Part shown: piece by piece, positions 11,884-59,527 of the stretch
Position numbering within the stretch: position 1 is the first letter of the stretch
How the letters are laid out: every line of letters begins with the position of its first letter
Source: Rathayibacter sp. VKM Ac-2754
Lineage (GTDB): Bacteria; Actinomycetota; Actinomycetes; Actinomycetales; Microbacteriaceae
DNA: 64,000 nt
Assembly (NCBI RefSeq): GCF_009807095.1
Contig: NZ_WUCC01000001.1
Location: 434,001 to 498,000, forward strand
Direction: 5' to 3'
Position numbers and translations under genes: made by a program
The notes under the pieces: model-generated
Seen by the model: only the letters and a program-made list of their open reading frames with translations
The model's database searches: none
Told to the model about the DNA's origin: nothing

Positions 11884-13158
11884 ATGACGCAGACGACGAA
11901 CGACTGGATCACGACAGCCATCTGGTGGCAGGTGTACCCCCTCGGATTCACCGGCGCGGAGGCCACGGCCGCCGAGGGCCCTGGTCCAGGCGACGAGCCG
12001 CGGCACCGCCTCCGCTCGATCCTCCCCTGGCTCGACGACCTGCTGGCGGTGGGCTGCAACGGCCTCCTGCTCGGCCCGGTCTTCTCGTCGATGACCCACG
12101 GGTACGACACGATCGACCACTTCACGGTCGACCCGCGCCTCGGCGACGAGCGCGACCTCGACGAGCTGATCGCCGCGTGCCGCGAGCGCGGGATCCGCGT
12201 GCTCTTCGACGGCGTCTTCAACCACGTCGGCCGCGACCACCCGTGGTGGCGCGAGGCCGTCGCCGCCGGTGCCGGCTCCGCCGCCGCGGCGCGGTTCTCG
12301 CGCGGGCCGTCGGCGCGCGAGGTCGACGGGTTGCCGGTGGACGTGTTCGAGGGGCACGAGGCGCTCGTCGAGCTCGACACCGCGAATCCGGAGGTCGCCG
12401 AGTACGTGTCCTCGGTGATGGCGCACTGGCTCGAGCGCGGCATCGACGGGTGGCGGCTCGACGCGGCCTACGCGGTCGACCCGAGCAGCTGGCGCGCCGC
12501 GATCGATCCGCTGCGCGAGCGCTTCCCCGGGGCGTGGTTCGTCGGCGAGGTCATCCACGGCGACTACTCGGAGTACGTCCGCGAGTCGGGGCTCGACTCC
12601 GTCACCCAGTACGAGCTGTGGAAGTCGGTGCGCTCGTCGATCGAGCAGGGCAACCTCTTCGAGCTCGACTGGACGCTGCAGCGGCACGGCGGGTTCCTCG
12701 ACGAGTTCCTCCCCCTCACCTTCATCGGCAACCACGACGTGACCCGACTGGCGAGCGCGATCTCGGACAGCAGGCACCACGGGCACGCGACCGCGATCCT
12801 CGGCTTCGTCGGCGGAGTCCCGAGCGTGTACTCGGGCGACGAGCGCGGGCTCGAGGGAGTGAAGGAGGAGCGCGCGGGCGGCGACGACGCGATCCGCCCC
12901 GAGTTCCCGGCCGACCCGGGCGAGTGGCCGCGCGGCGACGCCTACCGGACCCACCAGGAGGTCATCGCCTTCCGGCGGCGGCACCCGTGGCTCGCCCGGT
13001 CGCGCACCAGGACGGTCGACCTCTCGAACACCGCCGTCCTGCTGATCGCGGACGGTCCCGATGGCGAGACGGCTCGCCTGGCCCTCAATCTCGGTGACGA
13101 GACGGTGACGGTCGGCGGCGTGACCGTGGGGCCGCACGCGTGGGTCCTGCCCGACTGA
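11884..13158 (+). CDS. GH13 alpha-amylase-family glycoside hydrolase
   Basis: 424-aa TIM-barrel enzyme acting on alpha-glucosidic bonds. Conserved regions are in order: FDGVFNHVGRDHP (region I), GWRLDAAYAVD with nucleophile Asp (region II, about residue 194), VGEVIHGDY with acid/base Glu (region III), and FIGNHDVTR (region IV). It lacks a signal peptide, so it should be cytoplasmic, acting on maltodextrins, sucrose-like or trehalose-like substrates; the subfamily is unclear. An AAGGGAT sequence lies before the ATG, and TACACT at 11834-11839 is a candidate -10. A structured repeat follows its stop. Confidence 0.88.
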   Translation: MTQTTNDWITTAIWWQVYPLGFTGAEATAAEGPGPGDEPRHRLRSILPWLDDLLAVGCNGLLLGPVFSSMTHGYDTIDHFTVDPRLGDERDLDELIAACRERGIRVLFDGVFNHVGRDHPWWREAVAAGAGSAAAARFSRGPSAREVDGLPVDVFEGHEALVELDTANPEVAEYVSSVMAHWLERGIDGWRLDAAYAVDPSSWRAAIDPLRERFPGAWFVGEVIHGDYSEYVRESGLDSVTQYELWKSVRSSIEQGNLFELDWTLQRHGGFLDEFLPLTFIGNHDVTRLASAISDSRHHGHATAILGFVGGVPSVYSGDERGLEGVKEERAGGDDAIRPEFPADPGEWPRGDAYRTHQEVIAFRRRHPWLARSRTRTVDLSNTAVLLIADGPDGETARLALNLGDETVTVGGVTVGPHAWVLPD

Positions 13159-13175
13159 CGGGACGGTCGCCAGGG

Positions 13176-13328
13176 CGTGTTGGACACGAGACCGCCGTCG
13201 CGAGCACGGCCTGATCGTGCGAGCTGCAAGGAGCGGATCGAAGGCCCATGCGGGCATGGGACGAGATCCGCGACGCCGCAGATCGAGCGATCAGGCCGAG
13301 CGGAGCACGCGGGATCGTGTTCAACACG
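13176..13328 (+). repeat. Structured foldback repeat, copy A
   Basis: 153-bp element that recurs at 57441-57594. Its ends are inverted copies of CGTGTTGRACACGA, themselves near-palindromic. Inside are a small hairpin GCACG/CGTGC (13204-13220) and a long helix: GCGGATC (13233-13239) pairs with GATCCGC (13265-13271), then a 4x4 internal loop, then CCCATGC (13245-13251) pairs with GCATGGG (13254-13260). Copy B changes four pairs in compensating fashion. It sits just after the GH13 stop. It may be a MITE-like element, an extragenic palindrome or an RNA structure; no open frame is convincing. Confidence 0.8.
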
Positions 13329-13405
13329 CCCTACGCTCGGGGCAGGCGACCCGTCGCGACCGACCGCTCCGGCGGACCGCGGCCGGGAGCGAGTCAGGAG
13401 TGGAC

Positions 13406-13726
13406 ATGTCGGCGAGGCAGCAGGACCGGGCGACCGGGATCGGCGAGGCGTCCGCCTCTCCCGCGGATCCGACGGGCGACCCCGGACCGGGTGAGCGCAG
13501 CGGCCTCTCGAGCCGCGTCGCCGACGACATCCTGAGCGGCACGGACGACTTCGGAGCGGACTTCGCCGAGGACGAGGGCGGCGGCGCCCCGGGCGGCGGT
13601 CCCGAGTCGGCCGAGGGGCTCGGCGATCTGCGTGCCGCCGAGATCGACGATCCCGCGCAGGCGGTCGGCGACGACCCGGCGAATCCGATCCACGGATCGC
13701 TGGCGGAGGAGTTCGAGGCGCGCTGA
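13406..13726 (+). CDS. Small acidic, disordered protein
   Basis: 106 aa, unrecognised. Rich in Asp, Glu, Gly and Pro with one short potential helix (RSGLSSRVADDILSG, about 32-46) and a C-terminal AEEFEAR. AGGAG 6 nt before the ATG at 13406 supports translation. It resembles in composition five other acidic small proteins in this window. No domain assigned; a stress-related or hydrophilin-like role would be speculation. Confidence 0.6.
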   Translation: MSARQQDRATGIGEASASPADPTGDPGPGERSGLSSRVADDILSGTDDFGADFAEDEGGGAPGGGPESAEGLGDLRAAEIDDPAQAVGDDPANPIHGSLAEEFEAR

Positions 13727-26488: not shown

Positions 26489-26527
26489 ACGGGGGGGGTC
26501 GGCGTCCTCGCGGAACGGCCGGGACTG

Positions 26528-26774
26528 CTGACGCTGGTGGGTCTCGATACGCCCCTGCGGGGCTACTCGACCAGCATGCAGGGCGGCGCGCGCCGCCTCC
26601 TGCCCGAGAAGAGGGACCTCACGCCGGCCGCCCGGCCCATGCTGATCGAGTAGCCCGCGGAGCGGGCGTATCGAGATCCACCAGCGTCGGAAGGCCGGCT
26701 CGGAAGGCCGATCTCTGACGCTGGTGGGTCTCGATACGCCCCTGCGGGGCTGCGGGCTCGACCAGCGAGCAGGC
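26528..26774 (+). repeat. Repeat cluster R1 in a convergent intergenic region
   Basis: Three copies of the motif GGTGGGTCTCGATACGCCCC...GGGGCTACTCGACCAGCATG: direct at 26528-26586, inverted at 26638-26689, direct and divergent at 26715-26774. Each copy has an internal GCCCC/GGGGC hairpin. The first two form a long inverted pair. The cluster fills the 296-bp gap between the 3' ends of the methyltransferase and photolyase genes; no gene is seen in it. The same family recurs at 38143-38280. Confidence 0.85.
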
Positions 26775-26784
26775 GCGGGGGGCG

Positions 26785-32100: not shown

Positions 32101-32275
32101 GTTCGGCTCGTGAGAACAGGTTCGGCTCGCGAGAACGAGCGGCTTCCGCGAGCCGAACGCGATTCTGCGAGCCGGAGATGGGCGGACGGCGAGTTCGGCT
32201 CGTGAAAACACACTCGGCTCGCGAGAACGAGCGGATTCGGCGAGCCGAACGCGATTCTGCGAGCCGGAGGTAGTC
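32101..32275 (+). repeat. Two tandem copies of repeat family R3
   Basis: Near-identical units begin at 32101 and 32193 (92-bp period). Each contains an inverted pair; in unit 1 GTTCGGCTCGCG (32120-32131) and CGCGAGCCGAAC (32147-32158) are perfect 12-bp arms, followed by GCGATTCTGCGAGCCGGAG. A third copy lies at 15713. Located between the kinase and PepSY genes; no gene in this 284-bp gap. Confidence 0.8.
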
Positions 32276-38142: not shown

Positions 38143-38280
38143 GCTCATCGAGCCCGCAGCCCGCGCAGCGGGCGTGTCGAGATCCACATCCGTCAGCAGG
38201 CCAGGGCTGAGGGCTGATCCGCTGAAGCCGGTGGGTCTCGATACGCCCCTGCGGGGCTACTCGACCAGCATGCAGGGCGG
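38143..38280 (+). repeat. Repeat pair R1 in a second convergent gap
   Basis: An inverted copy (38143-38196, ending GTCGAGATCCACATCCGTCAG) and a direct copy (38228-38280, GGTGGGTCTCGATACGCCCC...) of the family seen at 26528. It lies between the 3' ends of the LysR and aquaporin genes; the rest of the 287-bp gap shows no gene. Confidence 0.8.
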
Positions 38281-56472: not shown

Positions 56473-57435
56473 ATGCGACGACTCGGTTACGAACGTTTCG
56501 GCGGGCCCGACGTCCTCTCGTGGCGGACCGCGGCGCTGCCGATGCCGGGCCGCGGCGAGGTCCTCGTCCGCACCCGCGCGGCGAGCATCAACGCGACCGA
56601 CGAGAAGATCCTCTCGGGCAGCGCGCGCATCATGAAGGTCGGCCGGCGGCGCCCGTTCGGCTTCGGACTCGACATCGCCGGCACCGTGGAGGCGCTCGGC
56701 CCGGGTGCCCACGGCGTCTCGATCGGCGACCGTGTCGTCGGGATGACCCGCGACGGCGACGCCTTCGCCGACGCCTCGATCGCGAAGAGCACCGCGCTCG
56801 TCCGGCTGCCCGACTCCCTCGACTTCGTCCAGGGCGTGACGCTCGCGATGTCGGGAGGCACGGCCATCGGCCTCGTCGATGCGCTCCGGGTCCACGCGGG
56901 CGAGCGGGTGCTCGTCGGCGGCGGCTCCGGCGCGATAGGCGACCCGACGGTGCAGCTGCTGGTGCGCGCGGGGTGCACGGTCGCCGCGACCGGCTCCGCC
57001 TCCTCCGCCGACCTGCTGCGGGGCCTCGGCGCCGAGCCGCACGACTACCGGGCGCTCGACCTCGGCGTGCTCGCGGGCCGCTTCGACGTCGTGGTCGACG
57101 TCTCCGGGCATCTGCCGGCGTCCGACGCGGCGCTGCTCCTGGCCGACGGCGGCCGCTACGCGACCCTCGTGCCCAGCGGCGCCGCACTCGGCGCCCAGGC
57201 GGCGGGCGTCGTGCTCCGCGACCGCCCGCGCGTGCAGAACCTGATCGTCACGGCGACGGCCGAGCGGATCGGACGCGCGGTCTCGCTCGCCGCCTCCGGC
57301 GACCTGCGGCCCGAGACCGGTGCCGTGCATCCGCTCGAGGACGTCGTCGAGGTGCTGAAGCGCCGGGCCGCCGGCACCGACCGCACCCACGGGAAGATCG
57401 TGTTCACGGCCGACGACTCGGCGCAGCTGAGCTGA
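56473..57435 (+). CDS. NAD(P)-dependent quinone oxidoreductase-like MDR protein
   Basis: 320-aa zinc-free medium-chain dehydrogenase. N-terminal GroES-like domain (PGRGEVLVRTRAASINATDEKIL, GFGLDIAGTVEALGPGA), nucleotide-binding VLVGGGSGAIGDPTVQLL (about 157-175; canonical AxxGxxG variant) and the C-terminal HGKIVFTADD. It lacks the structural zinc cysteines. Reduces quinones or enones with NADPH; substrate unknown. Copy B of the structured repeat follows its stop. Confidence 0.87.
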   Translation: MRRLGYERFGGPDVLSWRTAALPMPGRGEVLVRTRAASINATDEKILSGSARIMKVGRRRPFGFGLDIAGTVEALGPGAHGVSIGDRVVGMTRDGDAFADASIAKSTALVRLPDSLDFVQGVTLAMSGGTAIGLVDALRVHAGERVLVGGGSGAIGDPTVQLLVRAGCTVAATGSASSADLLRGLGAEPHDYRALDLGVLAGRFDVVVDVSGHLPASDAALLLADGGRYATLVPSGAALGAQAAGVVLRDRPRVQNLIVTATAERIGRAVSLAASGDLRPETGAVHPLEDVVEVLKRRAAGTDRTHGKIVFTADDSAQLS

Positions 57436-57440
57436 CAGGT

Positions 57441-57594
57441 CGTGTTGAGCACGAGACCGCCGTCGCGAGCACGGCCTGGTCGTGCGAGCTGCAAGGAGGG
57501 AATCGAAGGCCACTGCGGTGCAGTGGTCGAGATTCCCGACGCCGCAGATCGTGCGATGAGGACGAGCGGAGCACGCGGGATCTTGTTCGACACG
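57441..57594 (+). repeat. Structured foldback repeat, copy B
   Basis: 154 bp, same plan as copy A at 13176: near-palindromic inverted ends, GCACG/CGTGC hairpin, and helix GGGAATC (57498-57504) with GATTCCC (57531-57537), inner CCACTGC (57510-57516) with GCAGTGG (57520-57526). Four base pairs differ from copy A, all compensated. It fills the convergent gap between the oxidoreductase and MFS genes and ends 2 nt before the MFS stop codon. Confidence 0.8.
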
Positions 57595-57596
57595 GC

Positions 57597-59165
57597 CTAG
57601 ACCTCCTCGGGTCGACCGCTCCCGAGGGAGAGGGTCGCGGCGAAGCCGATCGCGAGGAAGCCCGCCGCGGCGAATGCGGCGTATCGGGTGCCGTCCGAGA
57701 ACGCCTCCTCGGCCGCCCGGGCGACGTCGGCCGTCGCGTCGGAGGCGGCCAGCCCGGCGATGGCGGCGCCCGAGGAGTCGACGACCGCGTCGACGGTGCT
57801 CGAGACCTGCGCGGCCGGCAGACCCTGCTCCTCGAGCGACGCCGTGAGCGTCGCGGCGGTCGAGGCGTAGAGGACCGTCCCGAGCACTGCGATGCCGAGC
57901 GCCGAGCCGATCTGGCGCGCCGTCGACTGCGTGCCCGAGCCCTGGCCGCTCCGCTCGACCGGCACGTCGCGCAGCACGACTCCGGTCAGCTGTGCGGTCG
58001 CCAGGCCGACGCCGAAGCCGTAGACGGCGAGGAACGGCACGAGCGCCCACCACGGCGTCGAGTCGGAGATCACGGCACCGATGCCCGCGACTCCGACGAT
58101 CTCGGCCGCGAGGCCCACCCGCACGATCAGCACGGGCGAGACCCGGTTGCCGTAGGCGCCCGCGAACCCGGAGGCGACGAACGAGCCGAGCGCGAGGGCG
58201 ATCAGCACCAGCCCCGTCTGCACCGCCGAGTAGCCGAGCACGTTCTGCAGCCAGATCGGCAGGGCGAGGATGATGCCGAACTCGCCCAGCGAGACGATCA
58301 TCGCGGCCACGTTGCCGTTGCGGAACGACGGGAGGCGGAAGAGCTCGAGCGAGAGCATCGCCGAGCGGCCCGCCCGCTCGCGCGCCCGGGCCCAGAGCAC
58401 GAAGGCGACTCCGGCGAGCACGGCGACGGCGAAGGCGATCGGCACCGGCGAGAGATCGAGCGGCCAGCTCCAGTCGCCGGCCGAGAGGCGCTCGTCGACG
58501 CCCCACCAGCCGAGCGTGCGGCCCTCGATCAGCGCGAAGACGAGCGCGGCGGAGGCGACGACCGACAGCAGGGCGCCCACGAGGTCGACCCGGCGGCCGT
58601 CGGCCTGACGCGACTCGTCGACGAAGAGCAGCGCGCCGACGACGATGACGATGCCGAGCGGGATGTTGATGCCGAAAGCCCAGCGCCACGAGAAGTCGGT
58701 CGTGAGCCAGCCGCCGAGCAGCGGACCGACGGCGGTCATGCCTCCGATGGTCGAGCCCCAGACGGCGAAGGCCACGGCGCGCTCGCGTCCGCGGAAGGTC
58801 GCGTTGATCAGCGACAGCGTGGTCGGCAGCACCATCGCGCCGCCGATGCCCTGCACCACCCGCGAGAGGATCAGCAGGTCGCCGGTGGGAGCGAACGCCG
58901 CGGCGATCGAGGACAGGGCGAACAGCGAGATGCCGATGATCAGCATCCGGCGTCGGCCCCACCGGTCGGCCAGGGTGCCGAAGGCGAGCAGGAGGGCCGC
59001 GAACACGAGGGTGTACGACTCCTGCACCCATTGCACCTGCGTCGAGGTGATGCCGAGATCGGCGACGATCGACGGGATCGCGACGTTCACGATGGTCGAG
59101 TCGACGATGATCGTCGCTACGCCGAGACTGATGACGACCAGTCCGATCCACCTGCGATTGCGCAT
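57597..59165 (-). CDS. MFS drug:H+ antiporter, DHA2 family (14 helices)
   Basis: 522 aa. Opens WIGLVVISLGVATIIVDSTIVNVAIPSI with motif D1, motif A GTLADRWGRRRMLI, motif C-like GPLLGGWLTTDFSWRWAFGINIPLG, and about 14 helices. Exports lipophilic drugs or metabolites. A TetR-like 18-bp palindrome overlaps its -10. GAGGAGAGG precedes the ATG. No regulator gene is adjacent. Confidence 0.9.
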   Translation of the reverse strand: MRNRRWIGLVVISLGVATIIVDSTIVNVAIPSIVADLGITSTQVQWVQESYTLVFAALLLAFGTLADRWGRRRMLIIGISLFALSSIAAAFAPTGDLLILSRVVQGIGGAMVLPTTLSLINATFRGRERAVAFAVWGSTIGGMTAVGPLLGGWLTTDFSWRWAFGINIPLGIVIVVGALLFVDESRQADGRRVDLVGALLSVVASAALVFALIEGRTLGWWGVDERLSAGDWSWPLDLSPVPIAFAVAVLAGVAFVLWARARERAGRSAMLSLELFRLPSFRNGNVAAMIVSLGEFGIILALPIWLQNVLGYSAVQTGLVLIALALGSFVASGFAGAYGNRVSPVLIVRVGLAAEIVGVAGIGAVISDSTPWWALVPFLAVYGFGVGLATAQLTGVVLRDVPVERSGQGSGTQSTARQIGSALGIAVLGTVLYASTAATLTASLEEQGLPAAQVSSTVDAVVDSSGAAIAGLAASDATADVARAAEEAFSDGTRYAAFAAAGFLAIGFAATLSLGSGRPEEV

Positions 59166-59185
59166 GCCGGAGCCTCTCCTCGATT

Positions 59186-59205
59186 TAGTCAGCCGGCTGA
59201 CTATA
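59186..59205. promoter_or_regulatory. 18-bp perfect palindrome (TetR-type operator) over the MFS promoter
   Basis: TAGTCAGCCGGCTGACTA at 59186-59203; the minus-strand -10 TATAGT (59200-59205) overlaps it. Length and symmetry fit TetR-family operators. The regulator gene is not in the neighbourhood. Confidence 0.7.
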
Positions 59206-59527
59206 TGCCCTCGGGGCGCGTGGACGCCAGTGGAGGGCATCCGCGAACCCGCTGTGGCCGCGAGGTCGCCTCCGCTGGACGCTCCTCGCCCCCATCACGG
59301 CTGCGAAGCGGCGGATTCCGTCGAACCGATGCGAGGCCAGCGCCGGCATCCGGCACTTCTCGCCCCCACCGCAGAGGCGAAGCAGCGGATCCCGTCGGAC
59401 CCCCTCGCTCCGCAGAGTCCCGGACACCGGACAGATCCCTCCACGGAAGGGGTCCGGAAGGTTACCGGGCGCGAGCCGTGCGGGCAAGGATGCGAAGCGC
59501 CCGGAGGCGCCCCGTCAGGATGGTCGC
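59206..59527. other. Gene-free divergent region with a 74-bp-period repeat
   Basis: Two related stretches begin TCGCCCCCA at 59286 and 59360 and continue with GCGAAGCRGCGGATYCCGTCG. Together they make an imperfect direct repeat. No gene or obvious promoter motif other than that near the GlgX start. Confidence 0.5.

Follow-up and report, generated by a model that had tools for sequence, protein, structure and literature searches.

The window, the whole stretch of 64,000 nucleotides analysed here, carries two copies of a mobile element whose body evolves under constraint on its fold. We consider it probable, from the sequence comparisons described below, that this element is a miniature inverted-repeat transposable element (MITE) of about 165 bp which is moved by IS5-family transposases and has a fold-constrained body whose + strand works as RNA. 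MITEs are commonly viewed as decayed IS remnants. The element offers quantitative, strand-resolved evidence of a MITE body evolving as a structured RNA, and the presence of several end classes in one family means that the exchange of transposase specificity can be traced. With loops, strand and comparison copies named, whether MITE transcripts have a function becomes directly testable.

Copies, distribution and mobility of the element

The original prediction described a two-copy repeat, with elements of 153-154 bp lying 44 kb apart. Both elements are present, but in a family alignment they extend several bases more on each side, as far as the terminal CTAG or what is left of it (Table 1). The pair exists, but it belongs to a larger set: a search of the home genome (G000) with copy 1 (L001) returned 15 match rows, comprising 6 full-length copies, several short or partial copies, and reverse-strand palindrome self-matches. 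A further short copy of the home genome, of ~66 bp with inverted ends, lies outside the window (L270, G000:C2:527341). The terminal tetramers are CCAG and CTAC in copy 1, while in copy 2 the left CTAG is lost and the right CTAG is intact. The self-palindrome CGTGTTGRACACG initially noted at the ends is not general, as other copies have CCTGGTG, GTGTCTGAC or GTGTCTCCC there, but mutual pairing of the two ends is. Similarly, copies were said to follow directly after a stop codon. This holds for copy 2, which starts on the last base of the dehydrogenase TGA and whose far end holds the TAG stop of the oppositely oriented MFS gene, but copy 1 starts 11 bases past the alpha-amylase stop.

Table 1. 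Features of the two window copies and their neighbours, with the G371 IS5 ends
Feature	Position	Strand	Details
Alpha-amylase family gene, upstream of copy 1	11884..13158	+	PF00128, 5.1e-39
Copy 1, full-length, class I ends	13170..13334	+ (best-folding strand)	Model score 185.3 bits
Copy 1 left terminal inverted repeat	13170..13189	+	CCAGGGCGTGTTGGACACGA; CCAG in place of majority CTAG
Tandem G.A loop A, 5' side	13190..13191	+	3' side 13313-13314; G.A 16/17, A.G 17/17 class I
Tandem G.A loop B and one-base bulge, 5' side	13202..13203	+	3' side 13302-13304; GCGAGC/GCGGAGC 17/17 class I
Loop C, GCAAGGAG/CGACGCCGC, tandem G.A 5' side	13231..13232	+	3' side 13272-13273
Tandem G.A loop D and one-base bulge (CGAAG/CGAG), 5' side	13240..13241	+	3' side 13263-13264
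Copy 1 right terminal inverted repeat	13315..13334	-	GTAGGGCGTGTTGAACACGA
Small ORF, 106 aa, downstream of copy 1	13406..13726	+	Without Pfam match; start region conserved in G007 and G004
Zinc-binding dehydrogenase gene, upstream of copy 2	56473..57435	+	PF08240/PF13602
Copy 2, full-length, class I ends	57435..57600	+	Model score 176.1 bits
Copy 2 right terminal inverted repeat	57581..57600	-	CTAGGCCGTGTCGAACAAGA; MFS gene's TAG stop inside
MFS transporter gene, convergent, beyond copy 2	57597..59240	-	PF07690, 9.1e-52; stop codon within copy 2's terminal CTAG
G371 IS5 ends			CTAGGGC[AG]TGTCTGACAAAG

Matches to the element were found in 8 of 15 Rathayibacter genomes, 6 of which have full-length copies. 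We collected 24 full-length copies of 164-183 bp (about 165 bp being typical): 18 from Rathayibacter, 5 from two other genera of its family and 1 from another family of the order. Their ends fall into classes that we named I to V, with 17 class I copies and one class IV copy in Rathayibacter, three class II copies in genus g73, two class III copies in genus g5, and a single class V copy in genome G661. A covariance model built from 17 copies (R1) was positive in 8 of 398 family genomes, in three genera, and a model built from 23 copies (R2) in 2 of 396 order genomes, namely the home genome and G661, whose copy (L277) scored 89.7 bits with R2; both wide searches were run with stricter filters, and weak members can be absent from these counts. 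The covariance-model search proposed with the original prediction thus reached divergent members outside the genus, in two more genera and a second family.

The core of the element (columns 41-64 and 103-126) is 73-86% identical between classes I-IV, compared with 41-72% for the ends and 36-72% for the apex. Since core identity exceeds that of the ends, the body persists while the ends adopt the forms of different IS5 groups. The same body may have come to carry different IS5-type ends by recombination, or because the two ends drifted together while selection kept them paired. Weak partial matches in G001, G005 and G013 (query 60-118) fell in a conserved coding region, by eye that of an AMP-binding enzyme, and were rejected as chance. 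No match was found in plasmid and phage records for L001 or L277, or in plasmid records for L062 and L064. Rfam gave 0 matches in the window, L062, L064 and L065, and a search with copy 1 by itself, relaxed to E up to 5, returned two hits far below the gathering threshold.

By its sequence features the element is a non-autonomous MITE: it is short and dispersed, has terminal inverted repeats, and its sites are found empty in relatives with target duplication. CTAG stands at both ends of 14 of the 24 full-length copies, and 7 more have one intact CTAG. The copy 1 site is empty in the close relatives G007 and G004, where the flanks are joined as GTCGCC-TA-CGCTC and GTCCCC-TA-CGCTC, respectively. 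At the copy 2 site the element is absent in relatives, but its place is taken by 22-38 other bases in the two closest, which makes this junction an unclean one. We then queried the genus with the joined flanks of 15 more copies (12 full-length and 3 short or partial). For 14 of the 15, some relative has the two flanks 70 bases or less apart, and for 8 a relative carries CTAG at the junction; at L002, for example, three genomes read gagc-CTAG-ggcg. Other junctions were CTCAG (L015), GTACG (L023) and CTGA (L029); the empty-site match of L024 was poorly aligned, and the relative of L022 retains a stretch resembling an element end. The target duplication may be TA, CTA or CTAG. CTAG is scarce in the window, with 9 occurrences observed against 154 expected from base composition, and 20 of 57 neighbour genes called with a heuristic caller have their stop codon within the element's terminal CTAG. 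Copies stand directly after genes because the CTAG target often falls in a stop codon.

Several sites carry shortened forms. At one orthologous site the element is complete in G005 (L016) and reduced to 64 bp in G001 (L076), the difference being an internal deletion between the GAGCACG repeats of the two arms. Other copies of 64-88 bp resemble internal-deletion products, with end points that are not all identical. Two such short copies, L066 (G007, 88 bp) and L071 (G001, 64 bp), follow the same gene, a shared position that suggests an old origin for at least one of the insertions. At the L002 site, where three other genomes have plain CTAG, relatives carry short sequences (L182, L190 and L193) that begin with CTAGGGCCTGGTCAC or CTAGGGGCTGGTCAC and may be what is left of a deleted element.

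Constraint on the fold and strand polarity

Each window copy is predicted to fold end to end into a single long rod, with a free energy of -112.5 kcal/mol (z -11.0) for copy 1 and -102.0 kcal/mol (z -9.2) for copy 2, and 0 of 200 dinucleotide shuffles folded as well in either case. We confirmed the four compensated pair changes originally read between the two copies: two lie where GCGGATC/GATCCGC became GGGAATC/GATTCCC, and two where CCCATGC/GCATGGG became CCACTGC/GCAGTGG. The selection on the folded form that had been proposed from these changes is supported by the wider family. Rather than losing pairing, further copies keep it (97.3% of cells in 17 copies and 95.0% in 23), and their covariation score lies beyond all 500 shuffles.

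Both sides changed in 17 of 62 pairs among the 17 class I copies and in 29 of 62 among 23 copies; short derivatives were excluded from the pair counts, and L277 from the 23-copy covariation, class identity and co-change counts. With 17 copies the covariation score was reached by 0 of 500 shuffles and the further-pair-types measure by 42 of 500, and with 23 copies 0 of 500 shuffles reached any of five covariation measures. Partners also changed together on the same branch more often than expected, with 20.5 co-changes against 6.0 (sd 2.1, maximum 13 in 600 null draws) for 17 copies and 34.7 against 16.3 (maximum 27) for 23 copies. Between L001 and the distant L277, 25 of the 62 pairs changed on both sides and are still paired, 26 are identical, 5 differ on a single side and 6 are unpaired in one copy; this alignment was fitted to the model, and such pair counts lean towards the model. 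Minus-strand rows (20 of 44) of alignment A5 were dropped before these L277 counts, and alignment A3 was inspected only. Identity between L001 and L277 is 48% in paired and 59% in unpaired columns, the opposite of that between L001 and L064 (66% and 44%).

The rod is interrupted by four tandem G.A loops (Table 1). Loop C is identical in 16 of 17 class I copies save for a covarying flanking pair, and its GCAAGG/ACGCCGC form also occurs in L277. Loop D has G.A in 17 and A.G in 16 of the 17 class I copies and is retained in L277. By eye, class II has no tandem G.A at loop C, and class III does not retain loops A, B and D. Two of the four loops start two columns from a covarying stem at columns 65-69, which argues against copying of whole arms.

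The fold had been read as that of either RNA or cruciform DNA. This can now be narrowed, since both the conserved G.A loops and the preponderance of G.U over A.C speak for + strand RNA. If a DNA palindrome were selected the two strands would be expected to be equal, so a strand bias points to RNA. We limited the count to pairs in which Watson-Crick combinations form the majority (9 or more of 17), adding three pairs that RNAalifold left open, and obtained 41 G.U and 6 A.C cells. By parsimony these amount to about 28.7 Watson-Crick-to-G.U events and 5.0 Watson-Crick-to-A.C events (rounded to 29:5, p = 4e-5), and reversions numbered 16.0 from G.U and 5.6 from A.C. Including the distant copies gave 49 G.U and 11 A.C cells. 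The polarity varies with the pair set: the 40 pairs common to both strands hold 16 G.U and 4 A.C cells, and the union of pairs predicted on either strand holds 73 G.U and 88 A.C cells, because pairs predicted on the minus strand only enter this count. The + strand also folded better in all 24 full-length copies (the 23 and L277), by 5.0 to 31.5 kcal/mol, and in 5 of 6 short copies. Copy-private departures comprised 12 G.U and 4 A.C (p = 0.08) and show the polarity weakly; for this reason the comparison of copies is taken to show a fold constraint on the lineage rather than on each resident copy. Part of the strand bias is inherited by common descent.

These observations also bear on whether the element could be an ordinary MITE with no RNA function, in which covariation arises from hairpin-templated repair or template switching together with transposase selection on matching ends. 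The ends must suit the transposase, and covariation is strong there (both sides changed in 15 of 25 helix 1 pairs in 23 copies). Long palindromes are susceptible to templated correction. The in-place deletion between direct repeats is an instance of replication acting on the hairpin, and the union of both strands' pairs is without a G.U excess. However, the inner stems covary as well, with both-side changes in 4 of 7 pairs of helix 4 and 6 of 9 pairs of helix 5 in the same 23 copies. In 16-17 of 17 class I copies, G.A mismatches and single-base bulges are kept at a distance of two columns from covarying pairs, although arm copying would have erased them. In addition, an ordinary MITE gives no reason for a favoured strand, yet one is seen both in the roughly 29:5 ratio of G.U to A.C events in Watson-Crick-majority pairs and in the better folding of the same strand in 24 of 24 copies. 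We consider this explanation unlikely.

Gene context and possible roles of the RNA

If the + strand does work as RNA, it would be produced by read-through of neighbouring transcription, since the element starts with its own hairpin. We examined the gene context of 29 copies (23 full-length and 6 short, including the orthologous-site pairs L016/L076 and L066/L071) with a home-made GC3 heuristic caller. This placed 12 copies between convergent genes, 7 in codirectional sense, 6 between divergent genes and 3 in codirectional antisense, with 1 lacking an upstream call; the caller had missed the 106-aa ORF beside copy 1, and hand correction gave 11, 8, 6, 3 and 1, respectively. Genes point at the element from upstream in 19 of 28 cases and from downstream in 16 of 29, with no clear preference for + sense. 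A role specifically as a sense-orientation 3' UTR was set aside, as the orientation of the neighbour genes gives it no clear support.

A bidirectional terminator or 3' stabiliser owned by the host and maintained at gene ends would fit the position of copy 2 exactly between two convergent stop codons, the 12 of 29 copies found between convergent genes (11 when hand-corrected), and the very stable rod. We nevertheless regard this as very unlikely. The element is patchy, with full-length copies found in 6 of 15 Rathayibacter genomes and orthologous sites without them; 6 of 29 copies lie between divergent genes, and at one orthologous site the copy is down to 64 bp. T runs in the 25 bases past the element reach 3 at most, counting all 24 copies and both directions, which does not match the T run of an intrinsic terminator, and the CTAG target accounts for the link to stop codons.

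Within our preferred explanation, an IS5-moved MITE whose + strand works as RNA, several roles can be considered. The rod at a gene end might act as a 3' UTR hairpin which ends or protects the transcript, so that insertion is tolerable. This role, which we put forward tentatively, is favoured because CTAG insertion so often hits a TAG stop codon. A trans-acting RNA and an RNA role in the element's own spread are, taken together, about as likely. A bolder reading, which we hold to be possible but doubtful, is that of a mobile RNA gene, in which the selected unit would be the folded + strand RNA: one RNA lineage would use several transposases and spread between genera, with its body and loops persisting in two or more families of the order and its DNA ends adopting different IS5 forms.

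Probable transposase partner and relation to known repeats

The element is most likely moved in trans by IS5-family transposases recognising CTAGGGC-N-TGT ends, judging from the match between the ends of the two. IS5-like ends occur in three of the five end classes (II, III and V), with 16-18 of 20 bases in common. Genome G371 holds two class II elements together with two IS5 copies of 945 and 953 bp, measured from CTAG to CTAG. The ends of these IS5 copies (Table 1) match class II (L062, from the same genome) at 17-18 of 20 bases, classes III and V at 13-15, and class I at 14-15. Against the NF033580 profile, one of the copies aligns at 4-257 with two internal stops, and the second aligns as two segments, 4-109 and 101-257. 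Rathayibacter G001 carries an IS5 of 977 bp with an end that matches classes III and V at 16-17 of 20 bases and classes I and II at 13; this IS5 stands in a different genus from the class III and V elements that it matches. Similar DNA was found in 289 plasmid records, and among the 15 best of these, 10 bear the annotation 'IS5 family transposase'.

In all these comparisons the ends are all that the element and IS5 have in common at E below 0.01. For class I, to which the window copies belong, neither the NF033580 profile (18 genomes) nor the exact end pattern (398 genomes) revealed an IS5 with such ends, and no IS5 partner was found for class IV either. The exact class I end pattern is confined to Rathayibacter among the 398 family genomes, and NF033580 gave no match in G000, G004, G005 and G013.

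Mobilisation as an IS630/Tc1-mariner MITE with TA duplication, like RUP, is suggested by TA at both ends, the CTAG target, a copy 1 empty site (CTAC) that best fits TA duplication, and some IS630-profile loci with CTAG-ended inverted repeats of other sequence, but we consider it highly improbable, and rejected IS630 as the partner, because 0 of 15 Rathayibacter genomes have NF033545 over cut-off (G000 has no match at all) while IS5 elements in the group have the element's ends and flanking CTAG. No IS630 over cut-off with the element's ends was present among the fetched loci. The CTAG-flanked inverted repeats, 1.08-1.61 kb apart, were seen at IS630-profile loci in other genomes of the order (L194, L196, L199, L200, L207, L220 and L221), and their sequences differ from the IS5 ends.

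Structured MITEs are already known, for example BOX and RUP of Streptococcus pneumoniae, which are described as typically under 200 bp and, by proposal, IS-mobilised (PMC3049150). In that account, as here, the inverted ends are predicted to pair in the transcript in an end-to-end, alignment-based RNA fold, and copies are over-represented between convergent genes (PMC3049150). It differs from BOX and RUP in sequence and phylum, and in having a handful of copies per genome compared with 125 BOX and 110 RUP, and the sections of the account drawn on here mention no strand polarity, conserved G.A loops or several end classes per body (PMC3049150). ERIC and Correia elements are described as short mobile repeats whose insertion into transcripts alters mRNA decay (PMC10969869); by description their hosts differ from those of our element, whose partner group is IS5-like with CTAG ends. 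BOX, RUP and ERIC were compared with the element at the level of their descriptions. REP elements, described as 20-40 bp intergenic palindromes with GTAG or CGTC tags (PMC3733652), share with the element its palindromic and intergenic character, but the element is about 165 bp with IS5-like inverted ends, and its size and ends do not fit the class of REP/REPIN with RAYT. The element also resembles the IS5-family IS of Actinobacteria (NF033580), which have CTAGGGC-N-TGT ends, flanking CTAG, and 16-18 of 20 end bases in common with classes II, III and V. Unlike the element, these are 945-977 bp with a transposase, and the element body has no match to them at E below 0.01. No Rathayibacter or Microbacteriaceae MITE was found among the titles listed in our literature search, with subscription journals and preprints outside its scope. 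As far as these tools reach, what is new is the family itself, its one-strand signature and the finding of a single body with several end classes.

The model also matched 26528-26769 and 32120-32269 in the window, and we rejected both as different repeats that are not family members. A palindromic repeat, TCTCGATACGCCC ... GGCTACTCGACCAGC, distinct from the element, occurs at 26528-26769 and 38236-38269, with TCTCGATACGCCC at 26542, 26729 and 38236 on the + strand and at 26664 on the - strand; the stretch 26520-26775 has a predicted fold of -162.8 kcal/mol (z -8.6). The region 32120-32269 is a direct repeat with 92-base spacing, in which GCGAGCCGAACGCGATTCTGCGAGCCGGAG stands at 32148 and 32240.
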